The translations under genes were made by a program, and so were the position numbers. DNA of 40,147 nucleotides from a virus. Position 1 is the first letter of the stretch, and every line of letters begins with the position of its first letter. The stretch is taken from positions 1-40,147 of IMG/VR virus record IMGVR_UViG_3300036859_001049. One strand, 5' to 3'. The notes under the pieces were generated by a model. That model had not been told where the DNA came from. It saw only the letters and a list, made by a program, of their open reading frames with translations, and did not search any database. This document shows, in pieces, positions 6,986 through 27,547 of this stretch.

Positions 6986-7215
6986 GCGGCAAGGAGAACC
7001 CGTTCGCCTTCAGCGCGCGCCTGGCGGACGACACGCTTGTGCTCGTCGCCGCGGCCTTCGACCACGAGGGGACGCTCTACCTCGAGCACGCCTGGCTCGC
7101 GCGCCAGGACGGCACGGGCGGGCCCGACTTCCTGGACATCGTCAGCTGGGAGGCGCGCCTCGATCTCCTGCAGCAAGCCGAGGTCGAAGCCCGGCGGTTG
7201 GGAATCCTCGGATGA
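6982..7215 (+). CDS. Early-region small hypothetical protein
   Basis: 77 residues, ATG 6982 overlapping the previous stop. FAFSARLADDTLVLVAAAFD looks like a beta hairpin, then a helix at the C-terminus (RLDLLQQAEVEARRLGIL). Soluble, acidic. Ends in ATGA with the next gene. Unknown function. Confidence 0.55.
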   Translation: MSGKENPFAFSARLADDTLVLVAAAFDHEGTLYLEHAWLARQDGTGGPDFLDIVSWEARLDLLQQAEVEARRLGILG

Positions 7216-7415
7216 ACCCCGCCGACTACATCCCGGTTGACCACCAGGCCGCGCTGAGCCGTCGCTGGCGGATCGCCGGTTGGGAGGTGACCGTGTCCAC
7301 CGACGTCTTCGGCCTGGGCGACCTGATCAAGCGAGCGATCGCCAGCGCTGCACGCTCCGCGAAGGGCGGCCCGACCACCGTGCGCGTTCGGCGGCTGACT
7401 GAGGGGCAGCCGTGA
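7212..7415 (+). CDS. Early-region small basic protein
   Basis: 67 residues, ATG 7212 in the overlap. Reads MNPADYIPVDHQAALSRRW and ends in a basic segment TVRVRRLTEGQP. Could bind nucleic acid but has no recognised motif. Translationally coupled on both sides (ATGA upstream, GTGA downstream). Confidence 0.5.
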   Translation: MNPADYIPVDHQAALSRRWRIAGWEVTVSTDVFGLGDLIKRAIASAARSAKGGPTTVRVRRLTEGQP

Positions 7416-7714
7416 CGGTCCTGCAGTTCGACGCGCGCGCCCGCGTGCGCGAGAACGATCGGCTCGTCCGCCGTGAGATGCGGCGCCGTCGCTGGCGCCG
7501 GCGGCTGGACGACCTGCGGTTCGGCTGGCGGATGCGCCTCGCGCGCGTCCGCTTCAGAGGCGACCGCGCGGTCGTCGCGCTGATGGTGTTCGCAGGCCTC
7601 GCGCTGCTGCTCGCCAGCCTCCGCGTTCCGCTCCTCCTGGCAGCCGCCTTCGCGGCGTCGATCACGCTGAACCTCGTCGCGCTCGCGCTCCACCTGCAGG
7701 GCCGCCGCCGGTGA
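7412..7714 (+). CDS. Small two-helix membrane protein in the early operon
   Basis: 100 residues, GTG 7412. The first 50 residues are extremely Arg-rich (cytoplasmic), followed by two hydrophobic segments at about 53-70 and 72-95 and a short basic end. The topology is a basic cytoplasmic domain with a membrane hairpin. Early expression suggests a host-takeover or exclusion role rather than holin, which has its own candidate at 19558. Inference only. Confidence 0.6.
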   Translation: MTVLQFDARARVRENDRLVRREMRRRRWRRRLDDLRFGWRMRLARVRFRGDRAVVALMVFAGLALLLASLRVPLLLAAAFAASITLNLVALALHLQGRRR

Positions 7715-7905
7715 GGGTCATCGCCTTCGTGCGCTGCCTGGTGCGCGGCCGCCACGAGCCGCGCCGCCAGTTCGGCGGCGGCTTCCGCTGCGCGGACTGT
7801 GGCCACGCCGGCGAGGACCTGGACGACATGGGCTTCTACGGCGGCGGGTACGTGGCGCCCGAGCGCCGGCCGTTCGTGCGCCCTCGCGCGAAGGCGCGGG
7901 CGTGA
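7711..7905 (+). CDS. Small zinc-ribbon-like protein
   Basis: 64 residues, GTG 7711. Contains CLVRGRHE then CADCGHAGEDLDDM; the CxxC plus upstream Cys/His could bind one zinc ion. The C-terminus is basic (RPRAKARA). Part of a run of tiny cysteine-pair proteins in this operon. Unknown function. Confidence 0.5.
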   Translation: MRVIAFVRCLVRGRHEPRRQFGGGFRCADCGHAGEDLDDMGFYGGGYVAPERRPFVRPRAKARA

Positions 7906-7936
7906 CCAGCTCGGGGCGGATGGGCCGCTCCGCTTC

Positions 7937-8041
7937 ATGGAGGACCGCATGCCGGACGACGACGACGACGACCTCGACGACGGCGAGCTCGAAGACGACG
8001 ACGACGACAGCGACGACGAGGAGGACGACGACGACGAGTAG
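7937..8041 (+). CDS. 34-residue poly-acidic peptide
   Basis: ATG 7937 to TAG 8041. After MEDRMP almost every residue is Asp or Glu (25 of the last 28). Encoded by GAC/GAG runs. The alternative reading from GTG 7902 would give a poly-Thr protein that continues into the next gene and looks off-frame. Very acidic phage peptides can act as DNA mimics that inhibit DNA-binding host proteins, but this is speculation. Ribosome site is weak, so it may also be untranslated simple repeat. Confidence 0.4.
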   Translation: MEDRMPDDDDDDLDDGELEDDDDDSDDEEDDDDE

Positions 8042-8084
8042 TCGATCGACCAGGCCGGCGGGGGGCCGATCCACCCTCGCCGGC

Positions 8085-8210
8085 CGCTTCAGACGAGCGG
8101 CGCGGCTGCTCGTGTCGGGCGAGCTGGAGACGCACCTGGTACGCGGCGCGCTGCTTCCGTCCCCCCGGCGGCGCGCCGCGACAACGACGCCGCGCCGCTC
8201 GTCTGAGGCG
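8085..8210 (+). other. Nested inverted repeats, predicted three-way-junction structure
   Basis: Outer stem: 18 perfect base pairs (8089-8106 with 8189-8206), extended to 22 with one T-G pair (8085-8210). Inside are two hairpins: GCTCG/CGAGC (8108-8112, 8120-8124, 7-nt loop) and a 14-pair stem with two wobbles (8142-8155 with 8167-8180, core CGCGGCGCGC, loop 11 nt). Together they give a three-way junction. It fills the only long gap (8042-8218) in this part of the early operon, and its right foot lies at the ribosome site of the gene at 8219. Candidates: structured regulatory RNA, processing site, or a replication/recombination element. Confidence 0.6.
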
Positions 8211-8218
8211 AGGTCGCG

Positions 8219-8566
8219 ATGGAACTGCAGAAGTGCCTGCACTGCAACGCGGCGATCCGTTGGGCCGTGACGCTTCGCAGCGTCCAGGCCGGCGGCGAGC
8301 TGAAGCACATGCCGATCAACCCGGCCCCGGACCCCTCCGGGAACGTGGAGTTCACCGAGCCCGACCGAGAGGACGGGCCGGTGCGCGTGCTGACGAAGGA
8401 GGCGATGGCAGGGCCGGCGACGCGCTACCGCTACACGGCCCACTTCGCCACCTGCCTGTACGCCAGGCGCAGCGCCCGCGGCGCGACGCCGGCGGCGCGG
8501 GAGCGCACGCAGCAGCGCTTCGAAAAGGAGACGTCGCACATGGAGCGGGGGAGACGCGATGACTGA
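8219..8566 (+). CDS. Phage small zinc-finger-like protein
   Basis: 115 residues, ATG 8219 with GAGG upstream. CLHCNAAIRW at the N-terminus, then a MPINPAPDPSGNVEF segment and RYTAHFATC further on. The order CxxC, PxNPxPDxxGN, HFATC is one I know from small uncharacterised proteins in many phages and mobile elements; the His and Cys at the end would complete a zinc site. C-terminal tail is basic and variable. Function unknown. Confidence 0.7.
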   Translation: MELQKCLHCNAAIRWAVTLRSVQAGGELKHMPINPAPDPSGNVEFTEPDREDGPVRVLTKEAMAGPATRYRYTAHFATCLYARRSARGATPAARERTQQRFEKETSHMERGRRDD

Positions 8567-8822
8567 ACGTGACGAGCTGGTGTCCGAGATCACCCAGGAG
8601 CTGACCGCACAGCTGACCGTGGATGCGCTCGGCTCGAACCGCAAGCTCGCGGAGGCGATCGTGGCAGGTCTCCAGGCCCGCGGCCGCGTCTACTGGCGGC
8701 CGGTCGCCCCTTGCACGGTCTGCGGGCACATGGCCGAGCGCGTGTCGACCGTGGACTGGCACTGCGGCGACTTCTGCTGCCGGTGCGTCCGCAAGGGCGG
8801 CGGATGCAAGGTCGCCGCGTGA
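8559..8822 (+). CDS. Small Cys-rich early protein
   Basis: 87 residues, ATG 8559, overlapping the previous gene by 8 nt. N-terminal helix (1-40), then CTVCGHM, HCGDFCCRC and GGGCK: seven cysteines that could bind two zinc ions. Followed by GTGA overlap with the next gene. Unknown function; probably nucleic-acid or protein binding. Confidence 0.55.
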   Translation: MTERDELVSEITQELTAQLTVDALGSNRKLAEAIVAGLQARGRVYWRPVAPCTVCGHMAERVSTVDWHCGDFCCRCVRKGGGCKVAA

Positions 8823-9061
8823 AGTGCATGCGGACGGACTGCGCGGCGCCGGCGACCTTGCACGGCGTCTTCGCCTGGGCGGCGCCGGCCGCCCCGTCGG
8901 AGCTGGACACGGCCCTCGAGCTCTGCCAGCAGCACGCGGCCGAGGAGGACCAGCTCGGCGCCCTGCAGCGGCACTTCCTGTTCGTCGCTCGCGTCGTCTG
9001 CAACGCGGTGAAGCGTCCGCACCCCGTGGACGTGCGCCTGACCTGGAGGCCGACGTCATGA
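8819..9061 (+). CDS. Small Cys-containing early protein
   Basis: 80 residues from GTG 8819 (VKCMRTDCAAPATLHGVF). Two cysteines at the start, then CQQH in the middle, consistent with one zinc site (CxxxxC...CxxH). Remainder helical. Overlaps its neighbours by GTGA and ATGA. Unknown function. Confidence 0.5.
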   Translation: MKCMRTDCAAPATLHGVFAWAAPAAPSELDTALELCQQHAAEEDQLGALQRHFLFVARVVCNAVKRPHPVDVRLTWRPTS

Positions 9062-9567
9062 AGAAGCCGATCCGCTACGCCGAGGGCACGTCCGTCCCGG
9101 CCGAGAAGACGCAGTTCGAGATCCGCCAGCTGATCGGCCGCCACGGTGCCGAGGGCTTCGCGTACGCCGAGACGCCGAAGCTCGCGCGCATTGAGTTCAT
9201 GACCCGCGGGCGGCGCATCCGGTTCGAGCTGGCGATGCCCCAGCTCGACGCGGCGCTGTACACGCCCGGCGATCGCGAGCGCGGGGCCCAGTACCGCGAG
9301 CTCTTCGGCAAGAGCCGCTACTGGCGGACCGACGCGACCGCGCACGCGATCCGCGAGCAGGAGATCCGGCGCCTGTGGCGCTGCCTGCTGCTCTGCATCA
9401 AGTCGAAGTTCGAGGTTGTGGCCACGGGCATGGCGATCTTCGAGGAAGAGTTCCTCGTGAACATCGTTCTCCCGGACGGCCGCACCGCCGGCGATCACGT
9501 CGTTCCCGCCATCGCCCGCGCGTACGAGACCGGCCGCGTCGTCGGCCTGCTGGGCACGGGGGAGTAG
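9058..9567 (+). CDS. Conserved phage/mobile-element protein of unknown function
   Basis: 169 residues, ATG 9058. Pattern TQFEIRQLIGRHGAEGFAYA, then RRIRFELAMP, then EQEIRRLWRCLLLCIKSKFE and EEEFLVNIVLPDGRT. I recognise this arrangement from an uncharacterised family frequent in siphophages and integrative elements, often near replication genes. Alpha/beta, soluble. No function is known to me. Stop is 26 nt before the ParB-like ATG. Confidence 0.7.
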   Translation: MKKPIRYAEGTSVPAEKTQFEIRQLIGRHGAEGFAYAETPKLARIEFMTRGRRIRFELAMPQLDAALYTPGDRERGAQYRELFGKSRYWRTDATAHAIREQEIRRLWRCLLLCIKSKFEVVATGMAIFEEEFLVNIVLPDGRTAGDHVVPAIARAYETGRVVGLLGTGE

Positions 9568-9593
9568 GCCCCCGCCCCATGAACGGAGGAGAG

Positions 9594-11267
9594 ATGGACG
9601 AGTTCCGAAAGATCCCGCTCGACCAGATCGTCGAGTCGAAGACCAACCCGCGCCGCCACTTCGACAAGGCCGCGCTCGAGCAGCTCGCCGCGAACATCAA
9701 AGAACGCGGCGTGCTGGTGCCGCTGCTCTTGCGACCCAACCCCGGCTCCACGAGCGTCTCGGAGTCGCTGTGCGACTTCGAGCTGGTCGCCGGCGCCCGC
9801 CGCTTCCGTGCCGCCAGGATGGCAGGGCTCGACCAGGTGCCCGCCCGCGTCCTCGATCTGTCGGACGACGCCGCGCTCGAGGTGCAGGTGATCGAGAACC
9901 TGCAGCGCGAGGACGTCCACGAGCTCGACGAGGCCCAGGGCTACGAGGCCCTCAAGGCGCGCGGGTACGACGTGCCGACGATCGCGGCGAAGGTGGGAAA
10001 GGACAAGAGCTACATCTACAAGCGGATGAAGCTGTGCGCGCTGACGAAGGCCTCGCGCACGGCGTTCTTCGAGGGAAAGGTCAGCTCGTCCATCGCCCTC
10101 CTGGTGGCGCGTGTCCCCTCGGATCTCCAGGCAAAGGCGCTCGACGTCATCGTCGAGAACGAGATGGGCTTCCGGCAGGCCTCGGACTACCTGCAGGACG
10201 AGTTCATGTTGCGCCTCGACGAGGCGCCGTTCCCGGTGTCCGACGCGCAGCTGGTACCCGCCGCCGGCTCGTGCGGCTCCTGCCCGAAGCGCACGGGCAA
10301 CAACCCCGACCTCTTCGGCGAGATCAAGAGCGCGGAGATCTGCACTGACCCCGCGTGCTTCAAGTTGAAGGTGAAGACCCACGCCGAGAAGCGGCTCGCG
10401 GAGGCCCGTGCGAAGGGGGTCGAGGTCCTGTCGGACGCCGCCGCGAAGAAGGTGATGCCGTACGGCGACGACTACGTCAATCCGTCTGCGGGCCTCGTGC
10501 GACTGGACGACGCTTGCCATGAGGACCCGAAGGGCCGGACGTACAGGAAGCTGTTGAAGGACGTGGAGCCCGCGTTCGTAAAGGTGCTCGTCAAGGACGG
10601 GGCCGTCGTCGAGCTGGTCGACCGGAAGGCAGTGACGGCCGCTCTGAAGGCGGCGGGCCACGACTTCGCGAAGGCCAGCAACCAGGCGCGCCCGGTCGGC
10701 GCCTCGTCCCACAGCGTGGAGGAGAAGCGTCGGACGGAGAAGGCCGCGCGCGAGACGCGTATCCGCTCGCTCATCGCGCGCGACATCCACGACCGGGCGC
10801 CGGCGACGCTCGTCGACGTCGAGCTGCTCCGCGCCGTGGCCGAGGGCTTCGTGCAGGAGGTCTGGAACGAAAACCAGAAGCGGCTCGCCAGCATCAACGG
10901 ATGGAAGGACATCGCCGACCTGAAGAAGGGGCTCAAGACCGCCGACGCCACGGCGCTCGTGTCTTTCCTGCTGACGGCGGCCGTGGTGCGCGAGGTGTAC
11001 GTCTCGACCTACGAGATCGCGCCCAGATCGAGCCGGCTGCTCGCGATCGCGCGCCGCCTGAAGATCGACCCCGAGAAGATCCGCCGCGACGAGCTGGCGG
11101 CCGCGACCGCGCGGAAGGACGCCAGGCCGCCGGCGAAGTCGGCCGGTGCCCGGGCAGTCGATCGAGTCCTGAACGCGAAGAAGAGCAAGCCCCCGAAGAA
11201 GAAGCCGGCGGGCCCGCTCGCGCGGAAGGCGAAGGGGAAGGCGGCCAAGGGCAAGAAGGCCGCGTGA
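9594..11267 (+). CDS. ParB/Spo0J-family protein
   Basis: 557 residues. ATG 9594 is preceded by GGAGGA; an ATG at 9579 lies before that ribosome site and is less likely. ParB N-terminal (CTPase) domain about 5-110 with NPR (18-20), GARRFRAA (67-74, the GxRRxRA box) and ENLQRED (101-107). HTH about 129-150. Then a CGSC...CTDPAC unit (Cys227, 230, 250, 255), probably zinc-binding, seen in phage/plasmid ParB-like proteins. A lysine-rich tail ends the protein. No ParA partner is present, so classical partition is doubtful; DNA binding near replication or gene control is as likely. Confidence 0.85.
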   Translation: MDEFRKIPLDQIVESKTNPRRHFDKAALEQLAANIKERGVLVPLLLRPNPGSTSVSESLCDFELVAGARRFRAARMAGLDQVPARVLDLSDDAALEVQVIENLQREDVHELDEAQGYEALKARGYDVPTIAAKVGKDKSYIYKRMKLCALTKASRTAFFEGKVSSSIALLVARVPSDLQAKALDVIVENEMGFRQASDYLQDEFMLRLDEAPFPVSDAQLVPAAGSCGSCPKRTGNNPDLFGEIKSAEICTDPACFKLKVKTHAEKRLAEARAKGVEVLSDAAAKKVMPYGDDYVNPSAGLVRLDDACHEDPKGRTYRKLLKDVEPAFVKVLVKDGAVVELVDRKAVTAALKAAGHDFAKASNQARPVGASSHSVEEKRRTEKAARETRIRSLIARDIHDRAPATLVDVELLRAVAEGFVQEVWNENQKRLASINGWKDIADLKKGLKTADATALVSFLLTAAVVREVYVSTYEIAPRSSRLLAIARRLKIDPEKIRRDELAAATARKDARPPAKSAGARAVDRVLNAKKSKPPKKKPAGPLARKAKGKAAKGKKAA

Positions 11268-11290
11268 TCCACGCGTTCGTAGAAGGGAGC

Positions 11291-11320
11291 GCTGGGCGCG
11301 TGTTGAAGCACGCGCCCAGC
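11291..11320 (+). terminator. Perfect 12-bp hairpin after the ParB-like gene
   Basis: GCTGGGCGCGTG (11291-11302), loop TTGAAG, CACGCGCCCAGC (11309-11320). Very stable, 23 nt after the stop. No T run follows, so it may be a terminator of the non-canonical GC-rich type, an mRNA stabiliser, or a ParB-related site. Confidence 0.5.
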
Positions 11321-11354
11321 ACCCGCCGCACACAGGTGGATCCCTGTGCACCTT

Positions 11355-11404
11355 GGGCCGAAGACTCCCTTGCCGCGATCGCAGCGAGGCGACTCTACCG
11401 GCCC
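11355..11404 (+). other. Second structured element in the leader of the methylase gene
   Basis: GGGCCG (11355-11360) pairs with CGGCCC (11399-11404); inside, CCTTGC (11368-11373) pairs with GCGAGG (11384-11389) around a loop holding GCGATCGC. The gap 11268-11431 thus holds two stable structures and no gene. It ends in CTCCACCA, but no tRNA cloverleaf can be drawn. Confidence 0.35.
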
Positions 11405-11431
11405 TCCACCAGAGCAACAAACGGGGGTCCC

Positions 11432-12211
11432 ATGCGGAGCGCCTTTCCCTGGATGGGCAGCAAGCGGCGTCTGGCCGCGCCCATCCTCGCCCGGTTTCCA
11501 AAGCACCGTTGCTACGTCGAAGCGTTCGCAGGCAGCGCGGCGCTGCTCTTCGCGCGTTCGGAGCCGGCACAGCTCGAGGTCCTGAACGACGTCGACGGCG
11601 ACTTGGTCAACTTCTTCCGGGTGGTCAAGCACCACCTGGTGGAGTTCTGTCACCAGTTCCGCTTCTTGGTCGTCAGCCGGAAGCAATTCGACTGGGCGAA
11701 CGCGACGCCGCCCGTCGTCCTGACAGACATCCAGAGGGCCGCGCGATTCCTCTACCTGCAGAAGCTGTGCTTCGGTGGGAAGCCGACCGGGCGCACCTTC
11801 GGCGTGGTGACGTCAGGCCCGCCGCGCTTCAACCTCTCGCGCGTCGAGGAGGACGTGTCCGAGATCCACGCGCGCCTCGAGCGGGTGGTGATCGAGAGCC
11901 TGGACTGGCGAGCCTGCCTGGCGCGGTACGACCGCGCCGAGACGCTGTTCTTCCTGGACCCTCCCTACTACCAGACCGCCGGATACGACGGGCCGGCGTG
12001 GACGCTGGCCAACTTCGTGGACCTGGCCGGCACTCTCCGCAAGCTGCGCGGGAAGGCACTCCTGACGGTCAACGACCATCCGGAGCTGCGCCGTGTCTTC
12101 GACGGGTTCGCGCATGAGCTGCTTGAGGTCCGCTACACGGTCGGCCTGGCCGACAAGCGTGCTCGCCCGAAGAGCCGGGAGCTGCTCTTCCGCACATGGG
12201 GAGGCCGGTAG
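11432..12211 (+). CDS. Dam-type DNA adenine methylase (D12 class)
   Basis: 259 residues, ATG 11432. N-terminal PWMGSKRRL, motif I VEAFAGSAALLF (SAM binding, about 29-40), LNDVDGDLVNFFR, and the catalytic motif LDPPYY (175-180) are all in the expected order for N6-adenine methylases of the Dam family. The product would methylate adenine in a short, here unknown, target; phages use such enzymes against host restriction or to time replication and packaging. Full-length compared with the family. It follows the ParB-like gene and precedes an HNH nuclease gene. Confidence 0.9.
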   Translation: MRSAFPWMGSKRRLAAPILARFPKHRCYVEAFAGSAALLFARSEPAQLEVLNDVDGDLVNFFRVVKHHLVEFCHQFRFLVVSRKQFDWANATPPVVLTDIQRAARFLYLQKLCFGGKPTGRTFGVVTSGPPRFNLSRVEEDVSEIHARLERVVIESLDWRACLARYDRAETLFFLDPPYYQTAGYDGPAWTLANFVDLAGTLRKLRGKALLTVNDHPELRRVFDGFAHELLEVRYTVGLADKRARPKSRELLFRTWGGR

Positions 12212-12213
12212 CC

Positions 12214-13158
12214 GTGGGGCGCGCGGCACCAGAGAAGCGGTGGGTCTGCCTCGGGCCGTGCCGCCGCTCGCTCCGTATCCGCGACTTCGCCCCGAACCGC
12301 CACGGGAACCCGGGCAGTCGCTGCAGGCCGTGCCTCCGCGCGGGTGTCCGCGCGAACAACGCCGCTCACCGTCCGAAGCGACTGGCCTACCAGGCCACGT
12401 ACCGGCGCACGCACCGCGTGCAGCTTGCCGCGGCCGACAAGCGCCGGCGCGACGCGAAGCCGAAGAGCGGCCGCCGGCGCTTCTGGCAGCCTCACGAGCT
12501 CGAGCTGCTCGTCGCGCGCTACCCGCACGAGTCGACGGCCGTGCTGGCGCGCGAGCTGGGCCGCGGCATCGGGCACGTCTATCAGCGCGCGGCGAAGCTC
12601 GGGCTGAAGAAGACGAGAGCGTACCTGGCGAGCCCCGCCGCGTGCCGCCTGCGCCGCACCGGAGGCGAACACCCGGGCGTCGCCTACCAGTTCCCGAAGG
12701 GCCACGTGCCCCACAACAAGGGCCTGCGCCGTCCTGGCTGGTTCCGCGGCCGCATGAAGGAGACGCAGTTCAAGAAGGGCGAGCGCCGCGGTGTGGCCGC
12801 TCGCCTCTGGAAGCCGATCGGGACCGAGCGCGTGAGCAAGGACGGCTACCTCGAGCGGAAGGTCAACGACGACCTGCCGCTGCAGGCGCGCTGGCGCGCG
12901 GTCCACCTGATCGAGTGGAAGGCGGCGCATGGGCCGCTTCCGAAGGGCCACGCGGTGCGCTTCAAGAACGGCGACCGCCGCGACGTCCGTCTCGACAACC
13001 TCGAGCTCATCACGCGCCGCGAGCTGATGGCGCGCAACACCGTCCACAACCTGCCGAAGCCCGTCGCCCAGGTCGTCCAGCTGCTGGGAGCCCTGAAGCG
13101 GCAGCTCAATAGGAGAACCAAGGCACATGGCCAAGAACAAGATCGAAGACCTGCGTGA
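12214..13158 (+). CDS. HNH endonuclease with N-terminal zinc finger and Myb-like domain
   Basis: 314 residues from GTG 12214, chosen because GGGGAGG lies 9 nt upstream; an ATG at 12196 lacks a ribosome site. Cys12, 16, 37 and 40 form a possible zinc finger. About 88-133 resembles a Myb/SANT-like DNA-binding unit (WQPHELELLVARYPHES). Then FPKGHVPHNKG and ETQFKKGERRG, seen in many phage HNH proteins, and the HNH domain at 228-266 (RAVHLIEW, GHAVRFKNGD, LDNLELI; His231, His246, Asn252, Asn262). Probably homing-type or packaging-related. Downstream gene starts inside its last 32 nt. Confidence 0.85.
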   Translation: MGRAAPEKRWVCLGPCRRSLRIRDFAPNRHGNPGSRCRPCLRAGVRANNAAHRPKRLAYQATYRRTHRVQLAAADKRRRDAKPKSGRRRFWQPHELELLVARYPHESTAVLARELGRGIGHVYQRAAKLGLKKTRAYLASPAACRLRRTGGEHPGVAYQFPKGHVPHNKGLRRPGWFRGRMKETQFKKGERRGVAARLWKPIGTERVSKDGYLERKVNDDLPLQARWRAVHLIEWKAAHGPLPKGHAVRFKNGDRRDVRLDNLELITRRELMARNTVHNLPKPVAQVVQLLGALKRQLNRRTKAHGQEQDRRPA

Positions 13159-13626: not shown

Positions 13627-14120
13627 GGGATCCCCTCGAGTCCGCCGCGCGCCCGTACCTGCGCGCGATCACGCTCTGCCAGCCCTGGGCGTCGCTGCTG
13701 GTGATCGGCGCGCGCGTGTACGACGTCCAGCACCAGCCGACCCTCTACCGCGGCGAGCTCGCGATCTTCGCGAAGCTCGAGTTTCCAGAGTGGGCCCAGC
13801 ACAAGGCGCTCGAGCGCGAGTTCGCAGGCCTGCTGTCGGCCGCAGGCCTGAAGCCCTGGGCTCTGCCGCGCGGCGTCGTGCTCGGTGTCGCCGACCTGGT
13901 CGACGTCCAGTCGATCGAGCAGGAAGGCGTCGTCGCCGGCGTCGCCATGTGCACGCTCGAGCGGCGCCTCAGCGACTACAAGGTCGGCCGCTACGCCTAC
14001 CGCTACGAGCGCATCCGCCGGCTGCGCGAGCCGATCGGCACCCGCGGCCGCGCTGGCCTCTGGCACTGGCGTTCACCTAAGCCGCTCGTCTTCACGGAGA
14101 GACCAGCAGACCCGAGATGA
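13623..14120 (+). CDS. ASCH-domain protein
   Basis: 165 residues, GTG 13623. LRAITLCQPWASLLVIGAR, then YRGELAIFA, LPRGVVLGVADLVDV and YRYERIRRLREPI are the expected strand-by-strand markers of the ASCH/PUA-like fold: QPWA at the start of the first helix, GxVVGxAxL in the centre. ASCH proteins bind RNA or act on modified nucleosides; some hydrolyse N4-acetylcytidine. In phage the role is unclear. Coupled to the initiator gene by ATGA. Confidence 0.85.
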   Translation: MRDPLESAARPYLRAITLCQPWASLLVIGARVYDVQHQPTLYRGELAIFAKLEFPEWAQHKALEREFAGLLSAAGLKPWALPRGVVLGVADLVDVQSIEQEGVVAGVAMCTLERRLSDYKVGRYAYRYERIRRLREPIGTRGRAGLWHWRSPKPLVFTERPADPR

Positions 14121-15205
14121 CCTCCACCCCCGGCAGGGCGCCGGACCGCGTCGTGAAGGACGTCGTCTCACGGAAGGGGTCTGTCTACTCGCCGGTCGAG
14201 CGCTTCGTCGCGTGGACGATCGCCGACCACATCAACCTCGAGCTCGGGTACGCCTGGCCGTCGATCGCGCGCCTGGTCGACCACACGGGCTTCTCCGAGA
14301 GGGCCGTCAGGAACGCCGTGCGTGCCCTCACGAGCGGCCCGCGCGCGCTGTTCGACCGTGAGGAGCCACCCCCGGGCGGCTGGCGCGACGGACGGGCAGG
14401 GCGCGAGCGTGGAGGCCGCGACGGCAGCTCGCGCTACCGCGTCCGCAGGGCCGTCCTTGAGGGGCACCACGTGCCCCCCATTGAGGGGCATCAGGTGCCC
14501 CCCATGGACGCGATGAGGGGCACCACGTGCAGTGATGAGGGGCACCAGGTGCCGGGATGGGGGGCACCAGGTGCCTACTACAGTCCGAATAGAACTTCCG
14601 AGAGAACGTCCGATACACACCCCCCTACCCCCGCTCACGAGCGGGGGCGCCCTCTCCCGAGCGCGAGCCAGCTGGTCTGGCAGCGATGGCTCGAGGCCCA
14701 GCAGATCGGCGCCGGCGGCCTGGCCGACAAGCGCTGGCGGAAGTGGTGCGGCGACCAGCTGCGGACACGCGGCATCGCCGCCGGCGAGCAGCTCGTCCGA
14801 CAGCGCATCGCGCGCGACGCCGAGGAGCGCCGCCAGGCGGCCGCGGAGGACGAGCAGCTCGCGGAGGTCCACGCGGCCGCGCGGGAGCTGCTGGCGCAGG
14901 CGCAGCGCGAGGGCCAGCCTCCGGGCGAGCTGTGGACACGGTTCATCGCCGCGGTCGAGGCGCGTGTAAACGAGCACGCCTTCGGCACCTGGTTCCGCTT
15001 CCTGGCGCCCGTAGCGCTCCTGCGCGGCGGCGCCGGCGAGCGTCTGATCGTGGCCACACCGAGCGCGCAGCACCGCGGCTGGATCGAACGGAACTACCGG
15101 GCCCAGGTCAGGGACGCGCTGCGCGACATCGGCCGCGATGACCTGGAGCTCGAGCTGCTCGTCGATCCCGCGCACGCGCCGCCTGGCGCATCGAGGGCCG
15201 GGTGA
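14117..15205 (+). CDS. Replication initiator: winged-helix plus DnaA-N-like domain
   Basis: 362 residues. Residues 20-75 are a winged helix of the HTH_36 type found in phage replication proteins (FVAWTIADHINLELGYAWPS, then GFSERAVRNAVRAL). About 275-355 resembles DnaA domain I (LWTRFIAAVEARV, FGTWFRFLAPV, LIVATPSAQHRGWIERNY), which in DnaA recruits helicase and other partners. The linker (114-153) is low-complexity because its DNA is five iterons. By analogy with lambda O, the protein would bind the iterons in its own gene and load the host helicase through the DnaA-N-like part. No phage helicase loader is seen nearby. Confidence 0.8.
   Translation: MTSTPGRAPDRVVKDVVSRKGSVYSPVERFVAWTIADHINLELGYAWPSIARLVDHTGFSERAVRNAVRALTSGPRALFDREEPPPGGWRDGRAGRERGGRDGSSRYRVRRAVLEGHHVPPIEGHQVPPMDAMRGTTCSDEGHQVPGWGAPGAYYSPNRTSERTSDTHPPTPAHERGRPLPSASQLVWQRWLEAQQIGAGGLADKRWRKWCGDQLRTRGIAAGEQLVRQRIARDAEERRQAAAEDEQLAEVHAAARELLAQAQREGQPPGELWTRFIAAVEARVNEHAFGTWFRFLAPVALLRGGAGERLIVATPSAQHRGWIERNYRAQVRDALRDIGRDDLELELLVDPAHAPPGASRAG
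14458..14574. repeat. Five 17-bp iterons, probable replication origin
   Basis: Copies at 14458-14474, 14482-14498, 14514-14530, 14536-14552 and 14558-14574, all on the same strand, consensus TGRGGGGCAYCASGTGC. Starts are 24, 32, 22 and 22 bp apart. Each contains a partly palindromic core (GCACCASGTGC). They lie within the initiator gene linker, as the origin does in lambda O. Other regions of the gene show no such repeats. Confidence 0.8.
14575..14627. other. Low-GC segment next to iterons, candidate unwinding element
   Basis: Starts CTACTACAGTCCGAATAGAAC; 14576-14621 is roughly half A+T, clearly lower in GC than the surrounding sequence. Its position directly beside the iterons is where an origin unwinds. 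By eye only. Confidence 0.5.
14628..14647. other. Hairpin beside the candidate origin
   Basis: CCCCCGCT (14628-14635), loop CACG, AGCGGGGG (14640-14647): 8 perfect pairs. It may mark a single-strand initiation site or simply limit unwinding. Occurs within the initiator coding sequence. Confidence 0.45.
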
Positions 15206-18435: not shown

Positions 18436-19115
18436 AGTACTCCACCTGGCTGTCGGCGCTCCTCGTCCTCCTGCTGCTGCCGCTCGCGGCCGCGGCGGAC
18501 GAGGACGCCGGCGTACAGACGCAGCTGCTGACCGGATCGGAGACGGTCTTCAGCGGCGACACCGCGCCCGGCCTTCGCCCCACGGCGACCATCGGCGTTC
18601 GCGCGCCGATCGTCCTGGGGGAGAAGGCCGTCGCGCGTTTGCACGCACGCCTCCGCCTGATCGGCCTGCCCGGCGCGTCGGTGAACGTCCGGGACGTCGA
18701 AACGGTGAAGGCGGCCGACCTGCAGCTGGGCGGCTTCGCCCAGGTCGGCAAGCTGAAGGGCGTGTCCACCGGCGTCGGCTGCGTGTGGGGCTTCAGCACC
18801 ATCTGGCCACAGGCCGAGGACCTGCAGGCCGCGAACCGCTACCCGCGGCACTACGGCTGCGGCGTGCGAGGCGAGAAGGCGCGCGGCCCCTGGCTCAGCG
18901 TCGTCTACGGTCGCCACCAGGCGGCAGGGCCGCGCGGCTGGGGCCAGGTGATCGTCGCCGGCGAGGTCCCGCTCAAGCTGACCCACGACGTGCTGGTGCT
19001 GGGCGGGGAGACGGTCCTCTCGGTGGGCTCGCCAGCGTCGGCCCCGCTGCAGCGCGATATCTGGCGCCTGCAGGCGGCCGTCGACGCGTTCGCGATCGCG
19101 GAGCTCTTCAGGTGA
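18432..19115 (+). CDS. Exported protein, possibly outer-membrane beta structure
   Basis: 227 residues from GTG 18432. Signal peptide 1-22 ending AAAADEDA. The mature part alternates beta-like segments (VARLHARLRLIGLPG, LQLGGFAQVGK, GPWLSVVYGRH, WGQVIVAGEVPLKL), which suggests beta strands, perhaps a small barrel. No family recognised. It sits inside the lysis cassette between lipoprotein 3 and two membrane proteins. Could belong to lysis or alter the host surface. Confidence 0.6.
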   Translation: MKYSTWLSALLVLLLLPLAAAADEDAGVQTQLLTGSETVFSGDTAPGLRPTATIGVRAPIVLGEKAVARLHARLRLIGLPGASVNVRDVETVKAADLQLGGFAQVGKLKGVSTGVGCVWGFSTIWPQAEDLQAANRYPRHYGCGVRGEKARGPWLSVVYGRHQAAGPRGWGQVIVAGEVPLKLTHDVLVLGGETVLSVGSPASAPLQRDIWRLQAAVDAFAIAELFR

Positions 19116-20248: not shown

Positions 20249-20794
20249 GTGGCCGGCATCGGGCCGCCGCCCAAGCCGCCGTCGATGCGGCGCCGCCGGA
20301 ACAAGGTCGCCGGCGCCACCACGCTCGAGCCGCAAGGCCCGTCCGGGCCGCCGCCGCCGCTGCCCTCGCGCGGTTGCCCTTCGTGCAACGGCACGGGTCG
20401 GCTGTCGGAGAAGAAGGGCTGCCCGTCGTGCGGCGGCACTGGCGCCCAGCCCTGGCACGCGATGGTCGAGGCCTGGTGGACCGACGTGTGGGCCTCGCCG
20501 ATGGCGCATGAGTACGTCGAGAGCGACAAGCACGGGCTCTACTTGCTGGCCGAGCTGCATGACCAGTTCTGGCGCACGGGCGAGCGCGAGATCGCGGGCG
20601 AGATCCGCCTCCAGGAGCAGCGCTTCGGGCTGTCGCCGATGGACCGTCGCCGCCTGCAGTGGCAGGTCGCGACGACGGAGGAGCGCCTGCGCAAGGGCAC
20701 GCAGCCGCCGGCGCCGCGCGCCGCGGTACAGCCGCCGCGCGCGAAGGACCCGCGCCGCGCCCTGGCGCTCGTGCCCGGAGGCAAGCGCGCGTGA
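20249..20794 (+). CDS. terS: Terminase small subunit with DnaJ-like zinc motif
   Basis: 181 residues. IGPPPKPPSMRRRRNK at the start and EWW/WASPMAHEYVESDKHGL, then IRLQEQRFGLSPMDRRRLQW, are the pattern of small terminases of siphophages. Unusually, residues 43-65 insert CPSCNGTG and CPSCGGTG, the CxxCxGxG repeats of DnaJ zinc fingers. This may add a zinc-binding DNA or protein contact. The stop overlaps the large-subunit start (GTGA). Confidence 0.82.
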   Translation: MAGIGPPPKPPSMRRRRNKVAGATTLEPQGPSGPPPPLPSRGCPSCNGTGRLSEKKGCPSCGGTGAQPWHAMVEAWWTDVWASPMAHEYVESDKHGLYLLAELHDQFWRTGEREIAGEIRLQEQRFGLSPMDRRRLQWQVATTEERLRKGTQPPAPRAAVQPPRAKDPRRALALVPGGKRA

Positions 20795-22431
20795 TCCTCC
20801 AGGTCCCGCCCGTCGACTCGAAGCCGTGGCCGACGCTGGGCCCGCTCGTGTGCGACTGGATCGAGGAGAACCTGGTCTTCGGCCCGGGCGATCTGCGCGG
20901 CCTGCCCGCGCGCGTCGACGACCAGAAGCGCGCGTTCCTCTACTCGTTCTACGAGGTCCACCCGAAGGGCAGCCCGCGCGCCGGCCGCCGCCGCTTCGAT
21001 CGTTGCGCGCTGTCGCTCCGGAAGGGCGTGGCGAAGTCCGAGTTCGCGGCGTGGATCGCCGGCGCCGAGCTCCACCACGACGCGCCCGTGCGGTGCATCG
21101 GCTTCGATCGGCGCGGCAACCCGATCGGCGGGCCCGTCACGGACCCGTACATCCCGCTGATGGCGAACACGGAGGAGCAGAGCGAGGAGCTGGTGTACGG
21201 CGCCCTGAAGGCGATCCTGGAGCTGTCGCCGATCGCCGGCGACTTCGACATCGCGCTCCAGAACGTCGTGCGTTCGGACGGCACGGGGAAGGCCGTCGCA
21301 CTCGCCGGCGCGCCGGGCCCGCGCGACGGCGCGCGCACCACGTTCCAGGTCTTCGACGAGACGCACCGTCTCTTCTCGCCGCGGCACAAGGAAGCCCACC
21401 GGACCATGCTCGCCAACATGCCGAAGCGCCCGATGGCCGATCCGTGGGCGCTCGAGGTGACGACGGCCTTCTCGCCCGGCGAGCGCAGCGTGGCCGAGGA
21501 GGCGATGGACTACGCGCGCGCGATCAAGGAAGGCAAGATCGCGAACCCCTCGTTCTACTTCTTCCACCGCCAGGCCAGCGACACGCTGAAGATCTACGAC
21601 CGTGAGGGCGCGGTGATCCCGCGCGCGCTGCGCAAGGCTGTGGTCGAGGCCTCCGGGCCCGACGCCGGATGGTCGGACATCGACCGCATCACGAAGCAGT
21701 GGGACGACCCGAAGGCCGACCGCTCCTTCCTGGGCCGCGTCTGGCTGAACCAGCCGAAGCAGGCGGCCGACCGCGCCTTCTCCGTCGTGGCCTGGCAGAA
21801 CTGCGCGGACCCGGACTACGAGATCCCGGACGGTGTCCTCATCACGCTCGGCTTCGACGGCGCGCGCACGAACGACTCCGTCGCGCTGATCGGCACCGAG
21901 ATCTCGACCGGCTTCCAGGCCGTGCTCGGCCTGTGGGAGCGGCCGCGTACCGCGAAGGTGTGGGAGGCCCCGGAGGAGCTGGTCGAGGAGGCCGTCGCCG
22001 CGGCGTTCGCGCGCTGGAAGGTCTGGCGCATGTACGCGGACCCGCCCTACTGGGAGACGAACGTCGCCACCTGGGCGAAGGAGCACGGCGACGAGGTCGT
22101 GATCCGGTGGCGGACGAACCAGTGGACCAAGATGGCGGCCGCCTGCGCCGCCTACGCGACCGCCATGGCTCAGGGCCACCTGAAGCACGACGGCAACGCG
22201 GACATGGAGAGCCACGTCGGCAACGCGCACAAGCTCCAGATGCACGCGCGCGACTCCGACCGCAACTTCCTGTGGGTGATCGTCAAGGAGCGAAAGGACT
22301 CGCCGAACAAGATCGACGCCGCGGTCGCCGGGATCCTGTCGTGGCAGGCGCGCACGGACGCGCTGACGTTGAACGCCACGCCCGACGACGGGCCGTCGAT
22401 CTACGAGTCGCGAGGCATGGTGACCATGTGA
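20791..22431 (+). CDS. terL: Terminase large subunit
   Basis: 546 residues from GTG 20791. ATPase: Walker A-like SLRKGVAKSE (75-84) and Walker B FQVFDETH (185-192, DE = catalytic acidic pair). C-terminal nuclease: GFDGARTNDSVALIG as its first strand with a catalytic Asp, MYADPPYW in the middle and KIDAAVAGILSWQ near the end with the last Asp. It pumps DNA into proheads and cuts concatemers. Full length. Similar to terminases of HK97-type siphophages with an adjacent HNH gene. Confidence 0.93.
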   Translation: MILQVPPVDSKPWPTLGPLVCDWIEENLVFGPGDLRGLPARVDDQKRAFLYSFYEVHPKGSPRAGRRRFDRCALSLRKGVAKSEFAAWIAGAELHHDAPVRCIGFDRRGNPIGGPVTDPYIPLMANTEEQSEELVYGALKAILELSPIAGDFDIALQNVVRSDGTGKAVALAGAPGPRDGARTTFQVFDETHRLFSPRHKEAHRTMLANMPKRPMADPWALEVTTAFSPGERSVAEEAMDYARAIKEGKIANPSFYFFHRQASDTLKIYDREGAVIPRALRKAVVEASGPDAGWSDIDRITKQWDDPKADRSFLGRVWLNQPKQAADRAFSVVAWQNCADPDYEIPDGVLITLGFDGARTNDSVALIGTEISTGFQAVLGLWERPRTAKVWEAPEELVEEAVAAAFARWKVWRMYADPPYWETNVATWAKEHGDEVVIRWRTNQWTKMAAACAAYATAMAQGHLKHDGNADMESHVGNAHKLQMHARDSDRNFLWVIVKERKDSPNKIDAAVAGILSWQARTDALTLNATPDDGPSIYESRGMVTM

Positions 22432-23210
22432 AGATCCGAGTGCCGACCCTTCTCCTGCCGCCCGGCCTGCGCGCGGCCGCGCCGCCGAAGGTCATGGTCG
22501 GCTATCCGGTGGGCGGCTCCGTGACTCTGGCCTTCCACGCCTCCGTCCTCAGCCTGCTCGGGTACGAGATCGCCAAGGGCGACGACCGGCTGCTGGCGAG
22601 GATCACGCACAGCCAGGGCCTGTACGTCGCCGACAACCGGACGCTCCTGATCCAGCGGTTCTTGAGCACCGAGGCCGAGTGGCTCCTGCAGGTGGACACA
22701 GATATCGCGTTTCCGCCCACCCTGCTCGAGACGATGGTCGAGCTCGCCGGCACCGAGCGCAAGGTGCTGGCCGCGAGCGTCCCGCTCAGCGACGTCCTGC
22801 CCACGTGCGCGTTTAACCGCACGGAGGTCCCGGGGATCTTCGCGCCGCAGCCCAAGTTCGAGGGCGTGATCGAGTGCGACGCGGTGGCGACAGCTGTGCT
22901 CCTCGTCCACCGCAGCGTGCTGCTCGACATCGCCGACCTGGACGGACAGTCGTGGATGCACCACCTGTATCTGCCCGCCAGCAACGTCGTCACGGATATG
23001 CGCCACTTCGTCTACCGCAGTCAGGGCGAGGACCTGGCGTTCTGCATGCGCGCGAAGAAGGCCGGGCACCGCATCTGGTGCGCGCGTGTCCACGGGCTCA
23101 GGCACCACAAGGCGTTGGCCATGTCGCACGACTACGACCTCAAGGTGCCGACGGGCGATCCGGGAGTCGGCGTGGTTGTGGACGACGAGCTGGTGGAGGA
23201 AGTGGGATGA
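22428..23210 (+). CDS. GT-A type glycosyltransferase in the head module
   Basis: 260 residues, GTG 22428 overlapping the terL stop. VMVGYPVGGSVTLAFHAS, ADNRTLLIQRFL, then LLQVDTDIAFPP with the DxD-type motif DTD (90-92), and a later SQGEDLAFCMRAKKAGHRIWC, where the acidic pair of GT2-like enzymes is expected. It would move a sugar from a nucleotide donor to an unknown acceptor. Its place between terminase and portal suggests virion protein glycosylation, known for some phages; DNA glycosylation is an alternative. No signal peptide, so cytoplasmic. Confidence 0.82.
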   Translation: MKIRVPTLLLPPGLRAAAPPKVMVGYPVGGSVTLAFHASVLSLLGYEIAKGDDRLLARITHSQGLYVADNRTLLIQRFLSTEAEWLLQVDTDIAFPPTLLETMVELAGTERKVLAASVPLSDVLPTCAFNRTEVPGIFAPQPKFEGVIECDAVATAVLLVHRSVLLDIADLDGQSWMHHLYLPASNVVTDMRHFVYRSQGEDLAFCMRAKKAGHRIWCARVHGLRHHKALAMSHDYDLKVPTGDPGVGVVVDDELVEEVG

Positions 23211-24952
23211 ACCTCTGGAGCCGCGTGAAGCTGGCCTTCCGGGCGCTGACGTTCGCCGACCTGCCCCAGGCCTGGCGTTCGATCCTGGGCGACGGCGAGC
23301 CGGTGGCCGCGGGCATCGCCGTCAACGAGAAGACGGCGATGACCAACTCGGCCTTCTGGTGCGGCGTCAATCTGATCTCGTCGCAGATCGCGACGCTGCC
23401 GCGCCACGTGCAGCGCCGCGTGGCCGACGACGGCCGCGAGCGGGACCGTGTCCACCACGCAGCCCGCGTGCTCGAGCAGCCCAATACCATGACGACCGCG
23501 GTCACGTTCTGGGAGACGCTGATGGCGCACGCCCTGACCTGGGGCAACGGCTACGCCGAGATCGAGCGTGACAAGGCCGGCCGGCCGCTGGCGCTCTGGC
23601 TCATCACGCCCGACCGAGTAACCCCGTTCCTCGACGGCGACGTACTTCGGTACCGCTGCACCCGCGCTGCGGACGGCAAGCAGACCGTCCTCGACGCGGA
23701 CGACATGCTGCACATCCCCGGCCTGGGCTTCGACGGGATCCGCGGCTACTCCGTGGTCTTCATGGCGCGGCAGTCCCTTGGCCTGTCGCTCGCGGCCGAG
23801 CGCTTCGGCGCGAAGTTCTTCGGCAACGGCGCCCGCCCTCAGACCGTGCTCGAGCACCCGAAGCAGCTGTCGCCGGAGGCCCAGGACCGCCTGAAGGTCG
23901 GCTTCGCCCGCGAGAACGCCGGCGAGCGCCAGCTGGGCGTCACCGTCGCCGAGGAGGGCATGCGGGTCCGCGTCATCGGGATCCCCCCCGACGATGCGCA
24001 GTTCCTCGAGACGCGGCAGTTCCAGATCGAGGAGGTCGCGCGCTGGCTCAACACGACGCCCTCGAAGCTGAAGAGCAAGGTGGGCGAGCGCCCGGGCGGC
24101 AACCTCGAGGCCAGCCAGATCGACTTCCTCACGGACACGCTCCGCCCATGGCTGGTGCGGATCGAGCAGGAGTGCGACCGCAAGCTCTTCAAGGCGGCGG
24201 AACGCATCGTGTACTACGTCGAGCACGTGGTGGACGCGATCCTGCGCACCGACCAGAAGTCCCGCCTCGAGGGCTACAAGGTCCTGGCGGAGCTCGGGGT
24301 GCTGACGCCCGAGCAGATCGCGCGGAAGGAGAACCTGCCGGCGCCGAAGCAGCGCGAGGCGCCGATCGCGCAGCGGATCGAGAGCGTCGGCCAGCTCATC
24401 CGCGCCGGCTTCGATCCCGACGAGGCGGCCGCGGCGATGGGCCTTCCGAAGATCAAGCACCTGGGGGTGCTCCCGGTCACCGTGACCCCGGTCGAGTCCG
24501 GACCGAAGGGCCCACCGCCGGGCGACGGCCCGGAAGCGCAGCGGATGCGCGCGGCGGTCCGCGCGGTGCTGGTGGACGCGGCCGCGCGCTTCGCGCGCCG
24601 CGAGGCGACCCAGGCGCGCCGCGCCGCGAAGGACGGGCCGGAGGCCTTCGGCGCATGGGCCGAGCGCTTCTACGCGCGCGAGGTCCTGGTGCTGCGCGAC
24701 CTGATCCGTTGCGGCGTCGAGCTCCAGCTGGCGTTCGCGTCCGTCCGGGCCGACGCCGGCGGCGTGGCGGCCGCGCTGGCCGAGGACTACGCGAAGCGCT
24801 CGCGCGAGCAGCTGCTCGGCCTGAAGGCGTCGAACCTCGAGCGCGAGGTGGAAGGTGTCGTGGAACGCTGGCTCACGCTGCGGCCGATCGAGATCGCCGA
24901 CACCGTGGCCGCCATGAAGGAGGGGAGTCATGCCGGAGTTCACGCTGCCTGA
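23207..24952 (+). CDS. Portal protein (HK97 family) with C-terminal extension
   Basis: 581 residues, ATG 23207. SAFWCGVNLISSQIATLPRH, WETLMAHALTWGNGYAEIER, PDRVTPFL, DDMLHIPGLGFDGIRGYS and FQIEEVARWLNTTPSKL are typical in order for HK97-like portals. The twelve-subunit ring forms the DNA channel. After about residue 430 there is a helical extension of ~150 residues rich in Ala and Arg, which is long for the family and might contact scaffold or protease. Overlaps the protease gene by 23 nt. Confidence 0.92.
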   Translation: MNLWSRVKLAFRALTFADLPQAWRSILGDGEPVAAGIAVNEKTAMTNSAFWCGVNLISSQIATLPRHVQRRVADDGRERDRVHHAARVLEQPNTMTTAVTFWETLMAHALTWGNGYAEIERDKAGRPLALWLITPDRVTPFLDGDVLRYRCTRAADGKQTVLDADDMLHIPGLGFDGIRGYSVVFMARQSLGLSLAAERFGAKFFGNGARPQTVLEHPKQLSPEAQDRLKVGFARENAGERQLGVTVAEEGMRVRVIGIPPDDAQFLETRQFQIEEVARWLNTTPSKLKSKVGERPGGNLEASQIDFLTDTLRPWLVRIEQECDRKLFKAAERIVYYVEHVVDAILRTDQKSRLEGYKVLAELGVLTPEQIARKENLPAPKQREAPIAQRIESVGQLIRAGFDPDEAAAAMGLPKIKHLGVLPVTVTPVESGPKGPPPGDGPEAQRMRAAVRAVLVDAAARFARREATQARRAAKDGPEAFGAWAERFYAREVLVLRDLIRCGVELQLAFASVRADAGGVAAALAEDYAKRSREQLLGLKASNLEREVEGVVERWLTLRPIEIADTVAAMKEGSHAGVHAA

Positions 24953-25538
24953 GATCGAGATCCGCAGCTGCGGCGTCGAGCTGCGCGCCGCCGAGGGCGA
25001 AGGGTCGACGATCCGGGGCTACGCCGCCGTCTTCAACAGCAAGAGCGAGGACCTGGGCTTCCGGGAGATCATCCTCCCCGGCGCCTTCGACCGTGCGCTG
25101 AAGGAGGCGCACGACGTCCGCGCCCTCTGGAACCACAACAGCGACCTGGTGCTCGCCCGCACGAAGAACGGGACGCTGCGCCTGGCCGTCGACGCGCGCG
25201 GCCTGAAGATCGAGGCCGACCTGCCGGACACCCAGGCTGGCCGCGACGGACTCACGCTCATCAAGCGCGGCGACGTCGACCAGATGTCCTTCGCGTTCCA
25301 GGTGCCGCTGGGCGGCGACGACTGGACGCAGGAGGGGCGGGACATGGTGCGGCGCGTGGCCGACCTTGACCTCCTCGACGTCAGCCCGGTCGCGTACGCG
25401 GCCTACTCGAAGACGCGCGTGTCCGCGCGCGCTCTCGCCATGGCCAAGGAGCTGCCGCCGGAAGTGCCGCCGCCGGCGGCGCCGACCGGACGGTCTCTCG
25501 CGCTGAACGAGCTGCGCATGCGCCTGTGGGAGTTCTGA
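24930..25538 (+). CDS. Prohead maturation protease (HK97 gp4-like, S78)
   Basis: 202 residues, ATG 24930 with GGAGGGGAG just upstream. IRGYAAVFN, GFREIILPGAFDRAL, ALWNHNSD (His69) and DQMSFAFQ (Ser120) are the family landmarks of the His-Ser protease; DLLDVSPV carries the conserved SPV. It assembles inside the prohead and removes the capsid delta domain. No scaffold gene is visible, so as in HK97 the delta domain of the capsid protein would serve. Confidence 0.92.
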   Translation: MPEFTLPEIEIRSCGVELRAAEGEGSTIRGYAAVFNSKSEDLGFREIILPGAFDRALKEAHDVRALWNHNSDLVLARTKNGTLRLAVDARGLKIEADLPDTQAGRDGLTLIKRGDVDQMSFAFQVPLGGDDWTQEGRDMVRRVADLDLLDVSPVAYAAYSKTRVSARALAMAKELPPEVPPPAAPTGRSLALNELRMRLWEF

Positions 25539-26302: not shown

Positions 26303-27547
26303 ATGGACACGAAGGCCCTGATCGAGGAGCGAGTCAAGCTCCACGAGGACAACAAGGCCCTGCTCGACAAGGCGGAGAAGGAGGGTCGCTCGGCCCTCAA
26401 CTCCGAGGAGCAGGTCGAGTTCGACAAGCGCGACGCGCGCAGCGTCGAGATCCGGAAGACGCTCGACAACCACGCGCGCGTCGAGGCCGAGGAGCGCGCG
26501 CTCGGCGAGAGCCGCGGCCGCCGGGTCGACTCCGCGATCGTCCCCGTCGAGGACGCCCGCGCGGCCGACCAGCAGCTGGCGTTCCGGGCGTGGGCGATGG
26601 GCGACGACGCGCCCGACGAGATGGTCGCCGCAGCCCAGCGCCTCGGCTTCCGTCACCGGCAGAAGACGCTCGAGGTGCGCGCGCTGTCCAGCGTCACGGC
26701 GACGCAGGGGCAGAACACCATCCCGGACGAGATGATGCGCGCCTTCGTCGACGTGCAGAAGTGGTACGGCAGCGTGCGTTCGCTGTCGACGGTGTGGCCG
26801 ACCGCCACCGGCGCGCCCCTGCCGATCCCCACCGGCGACGACACGTCGAACACGGGTGAGATCGTGGCGGACGGCGGCGCGATCACGACCACGGCCGACC
26901 CGACGTTCGGCCAGGTCACGCTCGGGTCCTTCAAGTACAGCTCGAAGGCGCTCATCGTGCCGTGGGAGCTGCTGCAGGACTCGTTCCTCAACCTGCCCGT
27001 GTACCTCGGGCAGAAGCTCGGCGAGCGCATCGCGCGCAAGCAGAACGCCGACTACACGGTCGGCGGCGGCACCACGCTCCCGTTCGGAGTCGTGCCGCGC
27101 GCGTCGCTGGGCAAGACGGCCGCGGCGACGAACCTGATCACCTGGGACGAGGTGATCGACCTGACACACTCCGTGGACAAGGCCTACCGCGCGCAGCCGT
27201 CGTTCCGGCTGATGATGCACGACCTGACCGCGGCGTTCCTCCGCAAGCTGAAGGACTCCCAGAACCGCTACCTCTGGGAGGTCAGCCTGCAGGTCGGCCA
27301 GCCGGACAAGGCGTTCGGCATCCCCGTGGAGATCAACAACGACATGAGCAGCTCCTTCGCCACGGGCGAGAAGCTGGTCCTGGCCGGTGCGTTCTCCTAC
27401 TACAACATCCGCGACGCCGGCGGCGTCACGTTCATCCGCGCGGACGAGCTCCGCGTGCTGAACGGCCAGGTGGTCTTCCTCGCCTGGCAGCGCTCGGACG
27501 GCAACCTCACCGACACCACCGCGGTCAAGTACCTGCGCACGGCCTAG
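26303..27547 (+). CDS. Major capsid protein (HK97 fold)
   Basis: 414 residues, ATG 26303, GGGAGG upstream. Residues 1-75 are a charged coiled coil, the delta (scaffold) domain. Cleavage by the protease is likely near 126-127 (EVRALSS). The mature part shows the HK97 order: TIPDEMMRAFVDVQKWYGSV (N-arm), VPWELLQDSF (spine helix/P domain), GERIARKQNADYTVGGG, and the C-terminal IRADELRVLNGQVVFLAWQRSDG. Starts with a long leader and ends with a clear hairpin terminator, consistent with a high-level mono-cistronic message. Confidence 0.95.
   Translation: MDTKALIEERVKLHEDNKALLDKAEKEGRSALNSEEQVEFDKRDARSVEIRKTLDNHARVEAEERALGESRGRRVDSAIVPVEDARAADQQLAFRAWAMGDDAPDEMVAAAQRLGFRHRQKTLEVRALSSVTATQGQNTIPDEMMRAFVDVQKWYGSVRSLSTVWPTATGAPLPIPTGDDTSNTGEIVADGGAITTTADPTFGQVTLGSFKYSSKALIVPWELLQDSFLNLPVYLGQKLGERIARKQNADYTVGGGTTLPFGVVPRASLGKTAAATNLITWDEVIDLTHSVDKAYRAQPSFRLMMHDLTAAFLRKLKDSQNRYLWEVSLQVGQPDKAFGIPVEINNDMSSSFATGEKLVLAGAFSYYNIRDAGGVTFIRADELRVLNGQVVFLAWQRSDGNLTDTTAVKYLRTA

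Follow-up and report, generated by a model that had tools for sequence, protein, structure and literature searches.

A lineage-specific inverted repeat predicted to form a long RNA hairpin at an early-operon gene junction of a high-GC phage

Introduction

Phage early mRNAs carry intercistronic RNase III processing sites, as in the early genes of T7 and the N leader of lambda. Inverted repeats just 5' of translation starts are a feature of Cluster K mycobacteriophages, where the ESAS (about 17–18 bp) occupy unusually large gaps in the non-structural gene half; their spacers are mostly 4–13 bp, they occur in many copies per genome and are tied to a conserved 13-bp SAS, and their authors reported little support for mRNA hairpins (PMC3203893). 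Microbacterium Cluster EG phages contain 8–10 copies of inverted repeats upstream of starts, the whole palindrome being 18 bp (PMC7302621). The put antitermination RNA of HK022 is about 70 nt long, consists of two stem-loops and lies 0–270 nt from early promoters (PMC9378689).

Here we describe an inverted repeat within the window, meaning the whole stretch of DNA that was analyzed, a 40,147-base IMG/VR virus record with 70.5% GC. Like intercistronic RNase III sites, the element would form a long and nearly perfect duplex in an intergenic gap of a polycistronic early operon, with a ribosome-binding site immediately 3' of it. Its 21 contiguous pairs, each predicted with a probability of about 1.0, agree with the feature by which such sites are recognized, some 20 bp or more of duplex in a gap that is non-coding. 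The element differs in being a single site, at which cleavage would be expected by analogy. An inverted repeat upstream of a start (ATG 8219) in a large gap also recalls ESAS; however, the arms are 18–22 bp, the spacer is 82 nt rather than 4–13 bp, and the window holds a single copy with no repeated motif such as the 13-bp SAS, and membership in that family was rejected on both counts. The element shares a start-associated 18-bp inverted repeat with the Cluster EG phages, but has 18 bp in each arm and is unique. With put it has in common a structured RNA, here a predicted one, in an early phage operon, whereas its 126 nt, its one long enclosing stem with inner hairpins and its distance from any recognized promoter all differ. 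Size, layout and position therefore argue against a put-type RNA, no promoter-like site having been found in 7200–9200 by a scan of sigma-70 types only.

Results and Discussion

The early operon and its non-coding gaps

The head genes of this phage are of the HK97 type (terminase, 20659–22431; portal, 22874–24952; protease, 24930–25538; major capsid protein, 26303–27547). The element lies in a rightward run of short and mostly overlapping genes: 7212, 7412, 7711, 7949, 8219, 8559, 8819, 9058, 9564 and 11432. The product of gene 9564 (9564–11267) is ParB-like and has an HTH domain, and that of gene 11432 is a DNA methyltransferase. Upstream of the element, on the plus strand, is a gene for a 30-residue peptide (7949–8041; MPDDDDDDLDDGELEDDDDDSDDEEDDDDE) preceded by a Shine-Dalgarno GGAGG at 7939–7943; its coding score of +30.5 over 30 codons is inflated by repeated GAC codons. 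The peptide is almost wholly acidic, its gene has a good ribosome site, and it could mimic DNA; alternatively, the gene may be an artefact produced by a tract of GAC triplets. Downstream, gene 8219 (8219–8566, plus strand) encodes a 115-aa, zinc-finger-like protein (CxxC...HxxxC) of phrog_5984, a family without an assigned function.

The 177 nt separating these two genes (8042–8218) have negative coding scores in all six frames, from -8.7 to -35, as against +20 to +37 for the neighboring genes. One ORF, 7902–8270, spans the gap from a GTG that overlaps the previous stop. This GTGA overlap is in line with the habit of the operon, and 8079–8160 is slightly positive in the frame of the ORF, but the score over 7902–8218 is -26.7, the ORF has no PHROG match and its last 52 nt would lie within gene 8219. 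That the gap is coding is scarcely credible.

The original prediction took this to be the one gap of any size in a densely packed operon, a statement that we must correct. A second non-coding gap of 164 nt (11268–11431) separates the ParB-like gene from the methyltransferase gene, which starts at 11432, and the hairpin in this second gap, GCTGGGCGCGTG-TTGAAG-CACGCGCCCAGC, with perfect 12-nt arms and a 6-nt loop, is at least as striking; the folding z there is -7.5 on the minus strand, versus -5.0 for the stretch that holds the element. Furthermore, a 13-bp perfect inverted repeat, TGCAAGGTCGCCG (8805–8817/8850–8862), brackets the start of gene 8819. It is the second-longest in the window at spacers <200 nt, and among 39 start regions tested, that of gene 8819 has the lowest predicted accessibility. 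Long inverted repeats at other junctions of the operon, namely the 8819 start and the gap after parB, count in favor of an intercistronic role for the element.

The inverted repeat and its predicted fold

The outer arms occupy 8085–8106 (CGCTTCAGACGAGCGGCGCGGC) and 8189–8210 (GCCGCGCCGCTCGTCTGAGGCG) of the plus strand, the latter terminating at the ribosome-binding site of gene 8219. They are 22 nt each, 95% complementary and separated by 82 nt. Eighteen consecutive perfect pairs join 8089–8106 to 8189–8206; a single U-G at 8088 brings the stem to 21–22 pairs with one G-U. These are the arms originally predicted, with 18 perfect pairs and 22 including one wobble, though the outermost pair, 8085–8210, is weak, with a probability of just 0.10–0.24 in three folding contexts. 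The 21 pairs of 8086–8106/8189–8209 have probabilities of 0.99–1.00 in three contexts.

Within the outer stem, a strong hairpin is predicted at 8142–8180 of the plus strand, with probabilities of 0.9–1.0 at most of its pairs. It has an 11-nt loop and the 14 pairs that had been claimed for it (8142–8155/8167–8180), two of which are U-G. A long outer stem carrying this inner hairpin is thus a firm feature of the predicted structure. The second inner hairpin, at 8108–8124 of the plus strand, has 6 pairs and is marginal (P about 0.63), and for this reason the three-way junction proposed originally is partly supported: it is the best single, minimum-energy model, but not a certain one.

The outer arms of 18 pairs are not a product of chance or of GC-richness, as is evident from their rarity in Markov copies, simulated gaps and related high-GC phage DNA. 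In the window itself, 18 is the longest perfect arm and the runner-up is 13 (spacers up to 300 nt). Arms of at least 18 appeared in 0 of 200 order-2 and 2 of 200 order-4 Markov copies of the window, and once in 60,000 simulated gaps of 177 nt with matched dinucleotide content. Across 387,582 bases of related high-GC phage DNA, the longest arm was 14 at loops >20 nt and 16 at short spacers. The original judgment that such a repeat is unexpected by chance is therefore well founded.

The total folding energy of the element is not exceptional for this phage. The sense-strand fold of 8075–8220 has a predicted energy of -99.1 kcal/mol (z -6.05), compared with -91.1 (z -3.65) for the antisense strand; for a shorter stretch the z values are -5.0 and -4.1, respectively. 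In a window-wide folding scan the stretch with the element ranked sixth, and coding stretches of the same phage at 18511–18650 and 5407–5546 gave z values of -6.1 and -4.6. Because coding regions reach similar scores, energy alone proves nothing, which is a caution for 70% GC phage DNA at large: folding energy does not single out functional RNA where coding stretches score equally.

A probable element of RNA rather than DNA

The evidence leans towards an element that acts at the RNA level, because the gap is non-coding, the sense fold is the more stable, the five non-Watson-Crick pairs in the minimum-energy fold are without exception G-U on the sense strand, and the predicted fold reaches the ribosome site of gene 8219. 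This last point bears out the original description of where the structure ends, with the Shine-Dalgarno GAGG at 8210–8213 of the plus strand and the ATG at 8219. G8213 and the spacer 8214–8218 are predicted to pair with either 8078–8084 or 8248–8253, and the mean unpaired probability predicted for the ribosome-start region, 0.17, is the second lowest among 39 starts. Since the pairing partner varies with the stretch that is folded, occlusion of the start is not robustly tied to the outer stem.

A site that works as DNA, whether as paired inverted protein-binding sites, as a cruciform or as terminal repeats bounding a small mobile element, appears distinctly unlikely. A near-perfect 22-bp inverted pair 82 bp apart does resemble transposon ends or paired operators, and a ParB-like HTH protein is encoded downstream (9564–11267). 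However, the strand asymmetry favors RNA, a target-site duplication of at least 4 bp is absent at every boundary, the window has a single copy, and no viral contig has both arms; neither of the two features expected of a transposon or MITE with terminal inverted repeats, a target-site duplication and further copies, was found, the copies having been sought in the window and the viral contigs. The absence of a target duplication and of a second copy also disfavors the second replication or recombination site that the original prediction had entertained, as does the presence of a candidate origin elsewhere, at 14456–14577.

Roles in transcription were considered as well. The location inside a long operon would suit a pause, a terminator or a put-like antitermination RNA, and the structured gap at 11268–11431 might be a counterpart. 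Against these roles, the stem is followed by AGGTCGCGATGG, which contains no U-tract; there are 0 terminator-like sites in 7200–9200; and the element is well inside the operon, in the region where the sigma-70 scan detected no promoter-like site. A 2014 paper by Czyz et al. (ref 28 in PMC9695777) states in its title that mycobacterial RNA polymerase needs a U-tract at intrinsic terminators. An ordinary intrinsic terminator is ruled out for this GC-rich stem with no U-tract behind it, and a transcription element of any of these types is improbable. Less credence still can be given to a discrete trans-acting small RNA from 8085–8210, which we regard as very improbable: the 126-nt fold is compact and self-contained, but the same scan offers no promoter-like site for it and no credible Rfam match, strong or weak, was obtained.

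Distribution among phages

BLASTN of the gap DNA against phages and plasmids yielded short chance matches only, the best listed having an E value of 0.04. Among 2.9 million IMG/VR viral contigs, a 17-mer of the arm occurred exactly in 15, each time as a single arm in unrelated sequence, and none of the 2.9 million had both arms. A covariance model built from the single sequence identified no second member in 98 sources or in five records. Its next hits were rejected, one being a hairpin inside a coding sequence (L078) and the other a simple short hairpin (L105). No Rfam family of 4227 was matched at the gathering score, and a permissive threshold added chance hits only.

Relatives were recovered by major capsid protein at best identities of 52–74%, including a 43-kb contig (L035) and the short L028, L029 and L036. 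The six capsid-relative records that were tested have neither gene 8219 nor parB nor the element, and the capsid relatives examined contain no inverted repeat >13 bp. In G003, a relative of 43 kb, other genes come after the homologue of gene 7711 and there is no strong repeat. A search of genome contigs with portal and capsid queries returned no relatives.

Relatives of gene 8219 were found in Rhodococcus phage Tonitrus (gene 77) and in contig L064 (IMGVR_UViG_3300038379_000915). In both, the homologue overlaps or abuts the preceding gene, with no upstream gap and with different upstream neighbors, indicating that gene 8219 can do without the element. Relatives of gene 9058 were present at 80 loci, of which L064 alone also has gene 8219 and a ParB-like gene. 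The ParB-like, 8219-like and 9058-like genes of L064 (1011–3492) are in an order unlike that of the window, a change which indicates that the early module has been shuffled between phages.

With no homologue in any search, the element is lineage-specific as far as can be seen. Related phages without the stems, named in the original prediction as grounds for refutation, are thus what we found among the available distant relatives; this tells against a conserved RNA class and leaves a lineage-specific element unaffected.

The same distribution bears on the possibility that the repeat is a neutral relic, formed by hairpin insertion or local inverted duplication where the acidic-peptide gene met the 8219 module and functionless now. 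The lack of homologues, together with the gapless 8219 relatives and their other upstream neighbors, points to a lineage-specific junction, as a relic would require. Yet the 18 pairs are still perfect, and the only departures from the helix are G-U pairs confined to one strand, a pattern not favored in a repeat undergoing decay. Phage genomes, moreover, seldom retain 177 nt of useless DNA within an operon. We consider a relic unlikely, while granting it some weight.

A putative intercistronic mRNA element

The reading that we tentatively favor, giving it somewhat less than an even chance, is a cis-acting, lineage-specific intercistronic mRNA element that limits translation of gene 8219 until an RNase III-type cut opens the stem, a reading drawn by analogy with the processing sites of phage early mRNAs. 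Transcription across 8042–8218 would place the 21-pair stem and its inner 14-pair hairpin on the mRNA, downstream of the acidic-peptide gene and upstream of gene 8219. The stem would leave the start region of gene 8219 paired, so that translation of this gene and of the overlapping later genes would be held down, with no coupling to the upstream genes for as long as the stem stays closed. The most likely means of opening would be cleavage of the long duplex by an RNase III-type enzyme. The upstream mRNA might then also retain a protective hairpin, as happens at intercistronic RNase III sites in other phages. A regulatory RNA or processing element, as suggested originally, fits the computed anatomy (a non-coding gap, sense-strand G-U pairs and predicted occlusion), but is not helped by the want of a homologue or by the gapless relatives of gene 8219.

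A bolder proposal would make the element the founding example of an undescribed class of intercistronic phage RNAs that gate a conserved early-gene module; such RNAs would have a long outer stem and a strong inner hairpin, perhaps in a three-way junction, and the gap at 11268–11431 would be a second, differently folded member in this operon. This has little prospect of being correct. Because no other sequence searched has the fold, a local switch or processing site is most likely, not a demonstrated new RNA class. The element itself is a genuine hairpin, present once, specific to this lineage and familiar in kind. If functional, it would be one more phage hairpin at a gene junction that sets the expression of downstream early genes, in a lineage for which no cultured relative was found. 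For now its main value is as a clear case of a junction hairpin that lends itself to testing, and as the caution on folding energy given above.

A probable replication origin and other genes

The O-like initiator gene at 14117–15205 holds five spaced repeats of the GAGGGGCACCAGGTGCC type (iterons) at 14456–14577. A lambda-type origin usually sits inside the O-like initiator gene, and the replication origin is probably at these iterons. On its C-terminal side the initiator matches the DnaA N-terminal domain (PF11638), an unusual combination. An 88-aa protein encoded at 13127–13393 matches phrog_2044, which is annotated as 'RNA polymerase beta subunit'.
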